Under the pieces are notes generated by a model. It was not told where the DNA came from, did not search any database, and was given only the letters and a program-made list of their open reading frames with translations. Shown here piece by piece: positions 1-50,701 of a stretch of DNA of 64,000 bases; position 1 is the stretch's first letter; each line of letters opens with the position of its first letter. The position numbers and the translations under genes were made by a program. The stretch comes from Parasutterella excrementihominis YIT 11859 (GTDB lineage Bacteria; Pseudomonadota; Gammaproteobacteria; Burkholderiales; Burkholderiaceae_F): positions 1 through 64,000 of the forward strand of contig NZ_GL883687.1 in assembly GCF_000205025.1 (NCBI RefSeq), in the 5' to 3' direction.

Positions 1-381
1 AGGGGTAGGTGAAAGCTTCCCCTACTCGATTGGTTTTCTCAATGTATTAGTGGTTTTACTCAGGATTGTCGGACCACGAGGACGAAATAACCACACGGCC
101 GAGAAAAATTCATGATACGTCTACAAATGTTTAGGTAGTAATACTTATAAAGATAGAAATAATACCTAATATGAATTTCAAATTATCTTCTAATTGAAGA
201 TCAATAAATTTTAATTGATCGAATAGATAGAATAAATACTCGAGTAACAACTGAAGTATTAGGTAATAACTCTTAGTTGTCTGAATCTGATTTATCTCAG
301 AACGTAAAATTCGTTTCTAGAAATATAAGGCCGAATTATCGGCGATGACTCTTTCTAAACCTATTGTTCTGGGAGAACCAA
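1..381. other. AT-rich non-coding leader upstream of the DcuC-family gene
   Basis: No convincing gene is seen here. The stretch from about 120 to 340 is clearly more AT-rich than the rest of the window and holds several inverted repeats: TACCTAATA at 163-171 against TATTAGGTA at 257-265; ATCTTC/GAAGAT at 185-201; and GATCAAT/ATTGATC at 199-220. It probably carries the promoter and 5' untranslated region of the transporter operon; no promoter hexamers stand out. Confidence 0.4.
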
Positions 382-17743: not shown

Positions 17744-18811
17744 TTAGCGATTTCTTTCTCGGCGATCGCGTACAGCGTGGGCCAGCGATGTAATGACTTT
17801 GACCGTATCATCCCAGCCGATACAGGCGTCAGTAATGGACTGACCGTACTTCAGCTCTTTTTCCTTACCTTTAACGAGAGGCTGGTTGCCTTCGACAAGA
17901 TTGGACTCAATCATGACGCCCATGATGTTGTAGCTTCCGTCCCCGATCTGCTTGCAGATGTTGTCAACGACATCGATCTGCTCTTTGTGCTTCTTGTGAC
18001 TGTTGGAGTGGCTGGCGTCAATCATGACGGAGGGCGGAAGTCCCGCGGCTTTCAGAGCTTCGCAAACCTTGGCAACGCTTTCAGCATCGTAATTCGGCGC
18101 TTTGCCGCCGCGAAGAATAACGTGGCAGTCTTCATTACCGCCGGTAACGACAATGGCGGAGTGACCGCCCTTGGTGACAGAAAGGAAGACATGTTCGTTT
18201 GCGGCAGCTTTGATTGCGTCGATGGCGATTTTGACGTTGCCGTCAGTGCCGTTTTTGAATCCGACCGGGCAAGAAAGGCCGCTAGCTAATTCACGATGCA
18301 CTTGGCTTTCTGTGGTTCGTGCGCCGATTGCACCCCATGAAATCAGGTCCGCGATGTACTGCGGCGTGATCATATCGAGATACTCCGTACCTGCGGGGAC
18401 ACCCAGTTCGTTAATCGTTAAGAGGAGCTCACGGGCCAAGCGAAGGCCGTGGTTGATATGGAAGCTACAGTCCAGGTCCGGATCATTGATTAAACCTTTC
18501 CAGCCGATAGTAGTGCGAGGCTTTTCGAAATAGACCCGCATGATGATTTCAAGGTCATCAGCAAAATAACGGCGGAGTTCAGAGAGTTTTTCTGCATATT
18601 CTTCGGCGGCAACCGGATCATGGATTGAGCAGGGTCCGACGATGACAAGGAGCCGGTCGTCTTTGCCGTGAATGATGTCATGAGCAGAGTGACGGGCAAT
18701 GTGTACGGTTGAAGATGCGAGTTGTCCGCAAGGAAATTCGCGAATGAGGTAAGACGGCGGAGTGAGTTCTCTGATTTCTTTAATTCTTAGGTCGTCAGTT
18801 GTGTAAGGCAT
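17744..18811 (-). CDS. aroG: DAHP synthase, class I (AroG/AroF type), attenuator-controlled
   Basis: A 355-residue 3-deoxy-7-phosphoheptulonate synthase, the first enzyme of the shikimate pathway, joining phosphoenolpyruvate and erythrose 4-phosphate. The N-terminus DDLRIKEIRELTPP is that of the E. coli AroG/AroF group; VGPCSIHDP, FEKPRTTIGWKGLINDP, GARTTESQ and DASHSNSHKKH are core active-site motifs. GGAGA precedes the ATG at 18811. The 5' region carries a Phe/Tyr-rich leader peptide and a terminator, so expression is very likely controlled by phenylalanine and tyrosine supply; the N-terminal type also fits allosteric feedback inhibition. A second DAHP synthase lies at 49.6-50.7 kb. Confidence 0.95.
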   Translation of the reverse strand: MPYTTDDLRIKEIRELTPPSYLIREFPCGQLASSTVHIARHSAHDIIHGKDDRLLVIVGPCSIHDPVAAEEYAEKLSELRRYFADDLEIIMRVYFEKPRTTIGWKGLINDPDLDCSFHINHGLRLARELLLTINELGVPAGTEYLDMITPQYIADLISWGAIGARTTESQVHRELASGLSCPVGFKNGTDGNVKIAIDAIKAAANEHVFLSVTKGGHSAIVVTGGNEDCHVILRGGKAPNYDAESVAKVCEALKAAGLPPSVMIDASHSNSHKKHKEQIDVVDNICKQIGDGSYNIMGVMIESNLVEGNQPLVKGKEKELKYGQSITDACIGWDDTVKVITSLAHAVRDRRERNR

Positions 18812-18851
18812 TATGGTTCTCCATTATGGCGCCTGTCGGGATTGAGGCTAT

Positions 18852-18884
18852 AAAAAACCGCCGAGTCCCGAAGGAGCGGCGGTT
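18852..18884 (-). terminator. Attenuator terminator in the DAHP synthase leader
   Basis: On the reverse strand AACCGCCG (18884-18877) pairs with CGGCGGTT (18863-18856), followed by six Ts (18857-18852). The 5' arm CCGCCGC can alternatively pair with GCGGCGG inside the leader-peptide coding sequence (forward 18932-18938), giving an antiterminator. An earlier CCGTC/GACGG pair (18944-18940 with 18918-18914) could form the pause hairpin. Confidence 0.88.
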
Positions 18885-18902
18885 AAGTAGTGTTGTGTGA
18901 TC

Positions 18903-18983
18903 TTAGATGCAAGCCGTCACAGCCCTACCTTCCGCCGCGGACGGAAAGTAAAAGCCGTAAAAGTAAAACTTAGAAGCGAACAT
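18903..18983 (-). CDS. Phe/Tyr-rich leader peptide of the DAHP synthase attenuator
   Basis: A 26-codon frame starting MFASKFYFYGFYF; eight of its first 13 residues are Phe (five) or Tyr (three). It ends at TAA 92 nt before the DAHP synthase ATG. The aromatic codons lie directly before the CCGTCCGCGGCGG segment, so a ribosome stalled there would free GCGGCGG to pair with the terminator's 5' arm and allow read-through; with enough charged tRNA the ribosome moves on and the terminator forms. This is the classical ribosome-mediated attenuation layout. No strong ribosome-binding site is visible before the ATG. Confidence 0.85.
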   Translation of the reverse strand: MFASKFYFYGFYFPSAAEGRAVTACI

Positions 18984-19063
18984 CTTTTGATACTTGCTAG
19001 TAAAAAGGTACTGAGGAATAATTTACCGTATTTTTCTCTTTCTAACGAAATTTCTTTCAGAAA

Positions 19064-20020
19064 TTACTTGCTCATGAAAAGAAAGATCGTTGAGTGATAG
19101 AAAACAGGCGCTGAGAAGAACAGCATTTCCATTCTGTCCAACGCCCCACGAGTCAGCATCATGCTGGTATCCAAGCGAACTGCTCCTAAAGAGCGCTTAA
19201 CCGAGGACATGACCAGAGCGCCCAGCGTTCCCGAGACAATAATCAGCAGGGACATAAGAGGTGCCTGCCAAGCACGGAAGGGAGTCATCCAGAAAAGCGC
19301 AGAGCCCATGATCAGAGCTCCGATGCTTCCGATAATGATGCCTTTGTATGTCTTGTACTGATTACTCCAAGTCGGCTTGCCGCCCCAGATGGCGGATGCC
19401 ATGATTTGGAACAGGTCCGCAAAATAGAGAACCAGCAGGAAGTAAAGCATCAGCAGCAAACCACTGGAATTAAATCTTGTGAGGTTCAATGTAGCAATCG
19501 CAGGAGCGTGGCTGACGCAGAAAATGGCCAGCATAATGCCCCACTGAACCTTAGCAACACGGTCCAAGAAGCGGTCGGTATCTTTGGCCAAGGCCATAAC
19601 GACCGGCAGTGTCAGGAATAAGTAGACTGGGATAAACAGAGAAAAGAGTCCGATCTCTTCGTATCCCAGAAGAATGTACTGAACGGGGATTGCGATGTAA
19701 AACGCAATGATCAAGATGACGTGGTCATGGCGCCGGGTCGGAGTCAGCGCAATAAATTCGCGCAGAGCAAAGAATGAAGCAAACGCGAAGAAGATGAGGA
19801 GCGCGGCCTCACCAAGACAGAAAGCAATCGCAAAAACGATCAGCAGGGGCCAAGAGGCACGGACGCGGGAGTTAACAACGCGAAGATTGTTGAGTCGAGT
19901 TTCGTTTCCTTGGGCGCGGGAGACCAGCCAGTTGCCGATAATCGTACCAATGGCAGAGAGAACAATAAGAACACCCAGAATCGTGAAGTAGGCTTCTTGA
20001 GTGGAAAATCCTAAACGCAT
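19064..20020 (-). CDS. CdsA-like phosphatidate cytidylyltransferase with degenerate signature
   Basis: A 318-residue integral membrane protein with about eight segments, related to phosphatidate cytidylyltransferase, which makes CDP-diacylglycerol. KTYKGIIIGSIGA and the C-terminal SVKRSLGA...GALDRME correspond to CdsA motifs, but the classical signature is changed: the Lys-Asp pair after KR reads V-R, the HGG is R-G-A, and the final Asp of DRxD is Glu. It sits 1 nt after an acyltransferase gene, the arrangement of YnbB-like accessory lipid genes rather than housekeeping cdsA. It may act on another lipid or be inactive. Confidence 0.7.
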   Translation of the reverse strand: MRLGFSTQEAYFTILGVLIVLSAIGTIIGNWLVSRAQGNETRLNNLRVVNSRVRASWPLLIVFAIAFCLGEAALLIFFAFASFFALREFIALTPTRRHDHVILIIAFYIAIPVQYILLGYEEIGLFSLFIPVYLFLTLPVVMALAKDTDRFLDRVAKVQWGIMLAIFCVSHAPAIATLNLTRFNSSGLLLMLYFLLVLYFADLFQIMASAIWGGKPTWSNQYKTYKGIIIGSIGALIMGSALFWMTPFRAWQAPLMSLLIIVSGTLGALVMSSVKRSLGAVRLDTSMMLTRGALDRMEMLFFSAPVFYHSTIFLFMSK

Positions 20021-49239: not shown

Positions 49240-49596
49240 TTAATAAACTTTGCGAATCGTTGCCGAGAGCGGAGTGCCGCTTTCGTCGTTTTCAATTGTC
49301 TGGCGGCCGATGTGCATCTTCTCAACGCGCCAGCCGGCGTCGCGCAGTTCGTTCAACGTTGCAACGACGTCCAAGTCGGGGCATTCAAACGAGAATCCGC
49401 CGAGTTTGGTGCCGGCGGTAAAAAGTCCCGCACCCTTGCATACCGTTTCTGTACGCAAAGGAGCATCCAGCAGCGGGTCAAGTCCGGCGCGATCGACGTG
49501 CGGAGTAAAGGCAGAATGCGATCCTGTGGAAGAACATCCTGCTAAGGCCAACGCAGCAAGCGCTGCAGCAGTCGAAAGTAAGCGTTTACTCACCAT
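49240..49596 (-). CDS. Small lipoprotein of unknown function
   Basis: A 118-residue predicted lipoprotein with signal and lipobox LAGC (Cys21). The mature part has a Cys pair (TVCKGAG and FECPD) and a small alpha/beta segment DVVATLNELRDAGWRVEKM. No family is recognised. Its start overlaps the end of the second DAHP synthase gene by 11 nt, so it is cotranscribed with it, but no functional link is evident. Confidence 0.75.
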   Translation of the reverse strand: MVSKRLLSTAAALAALALAGCSSTGSHSAFTPHVDRAGLDPLLDAPLRTETVCKGAGLFTAGTKLGGFSFECPDLDVVATLNELRDAGWRVEKMHIGRQTIENDESGTPLSATIRKVY

Positions 49597-50701
49597 TTAA
49601 TTTCTTATCCAAAAGACGACGATTGGTCATGCGCAACGCATGTTCGGTGGTTTCCCAGTCAATGCAGGCATCAGTGACGGAGACACCGTATTTAAGCTGA
49701 GACAGATCAGCAGGAATCTTTTGATTGCCAGCGTTAATGTTGCTCTCCAGCATGACGCCGCAAATCGATTTGTTGCCGTTGACAATCTGGGTAATGCAGT
49801 CGTTCAAAACGAAGGGCTGCAGGTCGGGATTTTTCATGCTGTTGGCGTGCGAGCAGTCGACAACGATGCGGGAGTCGACGCCGGCATCCTTGAGGGCTTT
49901 CTCGGCCAGCATCACGCTCACGGTATCAAAGTTCGGACGTCCGCCGCCTCCGCGGAGCACTAGGTGGCTGTAGCGATTGCCTTTGGTCTTGATGATAGAG
50001 CTTTGGCCGTTTTCATAGATACCTAAGAAGTAGTGGCTTTGGCGGCTGGCTTTGACGGCGTTAATCGAGCTGTCCAGAAGGCCGTCGGTGCCGTTCTTAA
50101 AACCGACCGGAGCGGACAGACCGCTCGCCATTTCTCTGTGGGTTTGACTTTCGGTTGTGCGCGCACCGATGGCATACCAGCTGACGAGTTCGCCCAAGTA
50201 CTGCGGACCGAACGGGTCCAATGCTTCGGTCGCAACAGCCAGACCCATCTCATTGATTTTGATCATGAGCTCACGGGCCTTGAGCATACCCTTTGCCATA
50301 TTGAAAGAGTTGTTCATGTCCGGGTCGTTGATGTCCCCCTTCCAGCCGACGACCGTTCTAGGCTTCTCGAAATACACGCGCATGACCGGGAAGATTGTCT
50401 CTGAGATGTGTTCTGAGAGTTCGGCTAAACGCTGAGCGTAATCCAGGGCCGCCTTCGGGTCGTGAATGGAACAGGGACCGGTAATGACCATCAAACGGTT
50501 ATCTTCTCCCGTCAAAATCTGCTTGATTTGATTTCTGCTCTTGTTGACGTTCTCGGCAGCAGCTTCGGTAAGAGGCGCCATCTTTTTGATCTCAGCCGGT
50601 GAAGGCATCGGCGCGAAACCTTCAATATTGATGTCTTCCAAAGAAAAACCGGCTTGTTGCTTCACTTCGTTTAATTTCGGAGTTTGCATAAACAACCACA
50701 T
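49586..50701 (-). CDS. DAHP synthase, class I (second isoenzyme)
   Basis: A 371-residue 3-deoxy-7-phosphoheptulonate synthase. Active-site motifs are intact: TGPCSIHDP, FEKPRTVVGWKGDINDP, GARTTESQTHRE, and DCSHANSMKNP. The N-terminus is longer and different from the isoenzyme at 17.7 kb, so feedback control probably differs; which amino acid it senses cannot be told. The start is uncertain: ATG 50701 or ATG 50689, neither with a clear ribosome-binding site. A terminator-like hairpin ends two bases before the first ATG, and a TATAAT lies at 50769-50774. Confidence 0.93.
   Translation of the reverse strand: MWLFMQTPKLNEVKQQAGFSLEDINIEGFAPMPSPAEIKKMAPLTEAAAENVNKSRNQIKQILTGEDNRLMVITGPCSIHDPKAALDYAQRLAELSEHISETIFPVMRVYFEKPRTVVGWKGDINDPDMNNSFNMAKGMLKARELMIKINEMGLAVATEALDPFGPQYLGELVSWYAIGARTTESQTHREMASGLSAPVGFKNGTDGLLDSSINAVKASRQSHYFLGIYENGQSSIIKTKGNRYSHLVLRGGGGRPNFDTVSVMLAEKALKDAGVDSRIVVDCSHANSMKNPDLQPFVLNDCITQIVNGNKSICGVMLESNINAGNQKIPADLSQLKYGVSVTDACIDWETTEHALRMTNRRLLDKKLNGE

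Follow-up and report, generated by a model that had tools for sequence, protein, structure and literature searches.

Aromatic leader and terminator upstream of aroG

The aroG gene of the window (the whole 64,000-nucleotide stretch of Parasutterella excrementihominis DNA that was analysed) encodes a DAHP synthase, which catalyses the first step of the aromatic amino acid pathway, and lies downstream of a short ORF crowded with Phe and Tyr codons. This arrangement raises the question of whether aroG is under ribosome-mediated transcription attenuation like that of trp or pheA and, if so, which amino acids the attenuator reads. The elements of the locus, all on the minus strand, are as follows.

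18983-18903, minus strand: leader ORF, 26 codons plus stop, translating to MFASKFYFYGFYFPSAAEGRAVTACI
18945..18968, minus strand: putative regulatory codons F6 Y7 F8 Y9 G10 F11 Y12 F13
18914..18961, minus strand: predicted pause (anti-antiterminator) hairpin, -24.8 kcal/mol
18932..18938, minus strand: antiterminator 5' strand GCGGCGG, within the leader ORF, core GGCGG
18876..18882, minus strand: antiterminator 3' strand CCGCCGC, doubling as terminator 5' arm
18852..18884, minus strand: intrinsic terminator AACCGCCG...CGGCGGTT plus T6 tail, from folding energy and covariation
17744..18811, minus strand: aroG, DAHP synthase with Ser211 (Phe-regulated type), from the NCBIfam equivalog and residue-211 alignment

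An earlier note on this DNA had described a 26-codon leader with eight aromatic residues in its first 13 positions and a terminator with a T6 tail before aroG, and this description was correct to the base. The ORF begins with an ATG at 18983 and ends with a TAA stop at 18905-18903, and Phe or Tyr occupies 8 of its first 13 residues. As a chance test for aromatic clusters, the 64 kb were shuffled 30 times with a first-order Markov model, and 8 Phe/Tyr within 13 codons did not occur in any of the shuffles. The window itself contains a single other place of this density, in AT-rich DNA close to the contig start (about 125-173, minus strand; HIRYYFYLYKYYYLN); no terminator or gene arrangement was recognised there, and the stretch is probably due to chance. 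A clear Shine-Dalgarno sequence was not found before the window leader, which we counted against the attenuator reading.

The terminator AACCGCCGCTCCTTCGGGACTCGGCGGTT with its T6 tail (18884-18852) begins 18 nt past the leader ORF, and aroG follows from 18811. Its 5' arm, AACCGCCG, lies at 18884-18877, its 3' arm, CGGCGGTT, at 18863-18856 and the T6 tail at 18857-18852, with a folding energy of -15.5 kcal/mol. The fold of the region 18846-18990 had a z score of -3.7, and none of 200 shuffles was equally stable. The window leader seems to have a short 5' UTR. The same-strand gene upstream of it ends at 19064. That gene would suit a plain terminator of the upstream unit, accompanied by a chance ORF and chance repeats, but this explanation is refuted by the conservation, covariation and phyletic spread reported below and has next to no probability.

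Alternative RNA structures at the window locus

The GCGGCGG element starts 6 nt past the last aromatic codon. The earlier note had proposed that it (18932-18938) pairs with the terminator 5' arm (18876-18882) as an antiterminator, and this pairing was borne out by covariation and by the longer helices of cognate than of swapped pairs. The same note took CCGTC/GACGG for the pause hairpin; a better pairing was found between ACTTTCCG (18949-18942) and CGGAAGGT (18934-18927), extended to 18961-18914.

With a ribosome footprint placed on the leader, the fold model gave an antiterminator probability of 0.85-1.0 for A-site positions at codons 6-12; the value dropped to 0.23 at codon 13 and to 0 for codons 14-21. 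The modelled results thus suggest that the antiterminator is released while a ribosome is held at the aromatic codons and is covered by a ribosome that moves on. In the pre-terminator RNA of the window folded at equilibrium without a ribosome, the antiterminator was favoured (0.70 vs 0.30), which was counted against the attenuator reading. In addition, the stop codon lies 26 nt beyond GCGGCGG, and a ribosome there would leave the element uncovered. Termination would therefore have to depend either on which structure folds first or on the terminator winning over the antiterminator. In Burkholderia, the leader stop codon lies 11 nt past GGCGG, and a ribosome at the stop would be close enough to cover GGCGG, as in trp. 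We considered whether leader hairpin strength is traded off against the distance from GGCGG to the stop, but the correlation was weak (Spearman -0.26, uncorrected for relatedness) and no claim is made from it.

From the leader ORF, the terminator, the antiterminator sharing the terminator 5' arm, and the conservation and covariation of both structures, all read from sequence, we infer ribosome stalling, hairpin opening, read-through and termination in response to Phe-tRNA or Tyr-tRNA. If Phe-tRNA or Tyr-tRNA ran short, the ribosome would stall on codons 6-13 and open the leader hairpin; this would leave GGCGG available for pairing with CCGCC, and RNA polymerase would continue into aroG. When Phe and Tyr are plentiful, the ribosome would pass, GGCGG would be covered or refolded into the leader hairpin, and the terminator would form, ending transcription at about 18852. 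Once the ribosome is released, or if the leader is not translated, the strong leader hairpin (-24.8 kcal/mol) could form first, a kinetic and unproven step. Taken together, aroG is very probably under the control of a trp/pheA-type ribosome-mediated transcription attenuator.

Conservation and covariation in Sutterellaceae

The window belongs to family f1 of our set, the Sutterellaceae, which includes Mesosutterella multiformis; 67 genomes of this family were examined, and 46 had a DAHP synthase match. With few exceptions, the intact AroG upstream regions showed an aromatic leader, a leader GGCGG and a CCGCC...GGCGG-Tn terminator in this order, with 5-10 aromatic residues in 12 in the leaders. 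No recognisable leader was present at aroG of genus g5 (G021-G023) or at the first aroG copy of G048, and the upstream sequence of G012 was too short to judge. An AroG match was not found in G001-G009 (genus g2) or in most of genus g16, whose members are possibly aromatic auxotrophs or users of another type of DAHP synthase.

In the alignment of 40 family sequences, the leader GGCGG (GGTGG in one sequence) and the terminator CCGCC and GGCGG were all invariant, and the leader frame was preserved while its nucleotides varied. The C-terminal residues of the leader peptide that are conserved (LAE, LAD or SAE) are the translation of the GGCGG RNA element, and their conservation is explained by the pairing of this element with the terminator.

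The earlier note had proposed to look in relatives for a conserved aromatic leader and compensatory stem changes; the frame was kept and both stems covaried. In the family alignment, 95.6% of cells were paired in the terminator and 93.1% in the antiterminator (extended leader GGCGG with the terminator 5' arm), each with 13 double-change cells and with 0 of 500 shuffles as high; relatedness of the sequences inflates these tests, but the changes observed were of several types. Pairing was gone when the antiterminator partner was slid by 1-3 columns. The antiterminator column pair 86-170 was UA in 16 sequences, CG in 10 and AU in 1, and terminator column 170 covaried both with its leader partner (UA/CG/AU) and with its 3' arm partner (AU/GC/UA). 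Thus, the leader GGCGG, the terminator 5' arm and the 3' arm covary in a way that supports both mutually exclusive structures. The leader (pause) hairpin was unsupported by covariation, with 66.6% of cells paired, equal to shuffles, and this was counted against the attenuator reading. Accordingly, of the complete classical apparatus announced by the earlier note, the leader, terminator and antiterminator stood, whereas the pause hairpin, though strong in the window, is not conserved.

We also compared 88 sequences from Sutterellaceae and other Burkholderiales, in which terminators were chosen by a GC-core picker and the window was calculated explicitly. The best pairing of the leader with the terminator 5' arm was a helix of 5-9 bp that usually started 4-11 nt past the last aromatic codon. 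Cognate pairs formed longer helices than swapped pairs (7.27 vs 6.60 bp; 0 of 2000 permutations). In three sequences (G043, L122 and L142), the longest leader-terminator helix excluded GGCGG. The leaders of Advenella sp. FME57 (L082) and Pelistega indica (L122) had aromatic clusters with weak or displaced antiterminator elements, and are possibly decaying or wrongly framed.

Distribution of the element in Burkholderiales and beyond

A covariance model built from the family alignment was searched against 399 Burkholderiales genomes, and matched 106 of them in 58 of 159 genera, nearly always once per genome. Among the matches below E 1e-4, all 60 that were checked sat immediately upstream of aroG. 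Of 69 matches compared, 64 were on the same strand 29-155 nt upstream of AroG, one (G387) preceded an AroG interrupted by the contig end, and the remaining 4 had E values of 1.8e-4 or worse. The leader frame was kept in Sutterellaceae, Burkholderia, Cupriavidus, Bordetella/Achromobacter, Oxalobacteraceae and others; named loci with leaders were those of Burkholderia (MSAKFYFYFFWYLRPLADREG), Cupriavidus, Bordetella/Achromobacter (MKFASPAFYFYFYGFLKPLAEEGTRSI), Herminiimonas, Oxalobacter, Advenella, Limnobacter, Duodenibacillus and Mesosutterella. No such leader was found at AroG of Enterobacteriaceae, Thauera, Rhodocyclus or Sulfuritalea.

In a class-wide sample, the model matched 10 of 369 genomes. 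Outside Burkholderiales there were four good matches, upstream of AroG in two further gammaproteobacterial families, f63 and f68; family f63, which we take to be Xanthomonas-like, had the leader MNAARASFYFWYYFPKPLAEEGLRSP at locus L163. The three weakest class-level matches (E above 6e-4) were not upstream of aroG and were rejected.

This constant position bears on whether the leader transcript or peptide acts mainly in trans, the terminator merely ending a small RNA gene, as with rnTrpL/peTrpL of Sinorhizobium. The S. meliloti attenuator RNA and leader peptide do act in trans (PMC7298713), and the C-terminal part of the present peptide has conserved residues. However, the GGCGG pairing accounts for the LAE/LAD/SAE residues and every checked match below E 1e-4 was directly upstream of aroG, which makes a mainly trans-acting role very unlikely.

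A T-box, riboswitch or protein-dependent switch with an incidental ORF would also use a terminator/antiterminator pair. Yet the Rfam 15 covariance models, T-box included, gave no match at gathering or relaxed thresholds except two implausible weak ones, and what is conserved apart from the terminator is an aromatic ORF that keeps its frame as its nucleotides vary. We regard a switch of this type as extremely improbable and retain the ribosome-mediated attenuator. No entry matching the element was found in Rfam, Pfam or NCBIfam, and no description of it was found for Burkholderia, Bordetella or Xanthomonas in the mainly open-access literature searched. The element is thus widespread, and apparently undescribed in the literature examined. 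It is a likely mechanism for controlling entry into aromatic amino acid synthesis in Burkholderia, Cupriavidus, Bordetella, gut Sutterellaceae and many other Burkholderiales, and would be useful for engineering aromatics in Cupriavidus or Burkholderia.

A Shine-Dalgarno-like motif was missing from 58 of 87 leaders. In 25 of 85 sequences (L107, L111, L113, L116, L118, L121, L123, L127, L128, L129, L138, L141 and others), a -10-like hexamer (TAGAGT, TAGGAT or TACACT) began 12-15 nt ahead of the leader ATG; at most other positions, such a hexamer began in one to three sequences. A hexamer at this distance may mean that the leader peptide is read from a leaderless transcript.

Comparison with known attenuators

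The earlier note had called control of DAHP synthase by a mixed Phe/Tyr leader much less familiar than Phe attenuators, but precedents exist. In Corynebacterium glutamicum, the operon of the DAHP synthase gene aroF is preceded by the AroR leader (Neshat et al. 2014, as described in PMC11802643). According to that description, through which AroR is known here, it resembles the window locus in that a DAHP synthase gene is preceded by a Phe/Tyr leader peptide, with reported ribosome-mediated attenuation; unlike the window locus, it is from an actinobacterium, has Phe-Tyr-Phe only and responds to Phe but not Tyr (PMC11802643). Acholeplasma uORFC-13-1 is likewise a predicted Phe-codon uORF with a terminator before an aroF DAHP synthase gene, but it belongs to a mollicute, has at least 1 Phe codon instead of a Phe/Tyr cluster, and follows another consensus (PMC8632094).

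Attenuators have been predicted upstream of a Vibrio operon of a DAHP synthase gene and tyrA (PMC1173090) and upstream of Shewanella aroF (PMC2659441). As presented in the relevant passages, these are DAHP synthase operons with proposed attenuation, as in the window, but they are Tyr-type isozyme operons of other gammaproteobacteria, and no description of the aromatic leader family was found in those passages (PMC1173090, PMC2659441). The E. coli pheA (pheL) and pheST attenuators share the Phe-codon leader, terminator and alternative antiterminator, but differ in their target genes and in having only one amino acid as signal; the E. coli DAHP synthase genes, unlike the window aroG, are repressed by TyrR and TrpR (PMC11802643). 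Sinorhizobium meliloti trpL is an attenuator leader like the present family, and its leaderless start resembles the one we infer for the Bordetella/Achromobacter relatives, but its signal is Trp and its target trpE(G) (PMC7298713). The mechanism is classical, and what is new is its breadth and a natural experiment provided by tandem isozymes.

Amino acid signal and the DAHP synthase isozymes

The window aroG protein scored above the cut-off of the NCBIfam AroG equivalog. In alignments to solved Phe- and Tyr-regulated enzymes, on which the following argument is based, the Phe-regulated AroG has Ser at residue 211 (E. coli AroG numbering), and the Tyr-regulated E. coli AroF and yeast Aro4 have Gly. 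Among 151 aligned DAHP synthase rows, which include some overlapping loci, 142 had Ser at this residue, 3 had Ala and 6 had Gly; five of the Gly211 rows were first copies of tandem loci (L019 and L081 being one locus) and one was the second DAHP synthase of the window. The latter (49586-50701, minus strand) is AroF-like and 46-47% identical, and its gene sits downstream of a DEAD-box helicase gene. No matching aromatic leader was seen before this gene or before pheA in the same genome. A TyrR-type HTH (TIGR04381) was absent from the window genome, and the E. coli control was positive; we counted this in favour of the attenuator reading.

Codon totals over the 88 leaders were 402 Phe, 186 Tyr and 27 Trp. 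The excess of Phe over Tyr codons, the Ser211 (Phe-regulated) enzyme and the AroR operon, which is described as responding to Phe but not Tyr limitation (PMC11802643), would all agree with an attenuator that senses Phe alone and carries its Tyr codons as passengers. However, most leaders retain Tyr codons, and in the leaders of the Mesosutterella Gly211 copies Tyr outnumbers Phe, so that we consider sensing of Phe alone rather unlikely. Phe is probably the main signal, with a contribution from Tyr.

Mesosutterella multiformis and its close relatives carry two head-to-tail aroG genes, in most cases with a separate leader and terminator for each.

L081 1277-1428 and 2660-2813: putative attenuators of the tandem aroG genes of Mesosutterella multiformis; tandem aroG genes, as a rule with one such element per copy, also in G044, G045, G047 and G048

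The Gly211 copies have Tyr-rich leaders (..YGAYYYYGFF, ..DFYYYGYYLY), except in G048, where this copy is without a leader; the Ser211 copies have Phe-rich leaders (..FYFTFNFF, ..FCFSFGFF). This pairing of leader and isozyme, which represents one or two evolutionary events only, fits a leader that reads both Phe and Tyr and is suggestive rather than proof. It is reasonably likely that leader codon content and enzyme feedback specificity co-evolved after the aroG duplication. If so, the same amino acid would control each isozyme at both the transcriptional and the enzyme level, through two tandem attenuators at one locus. The tandem isozyme pair is the most interesting part of the finding, and the Tyr/Phe pair of Mesosutterella offers a direct test of whether leader codons evolve jointly with feedback specificity.
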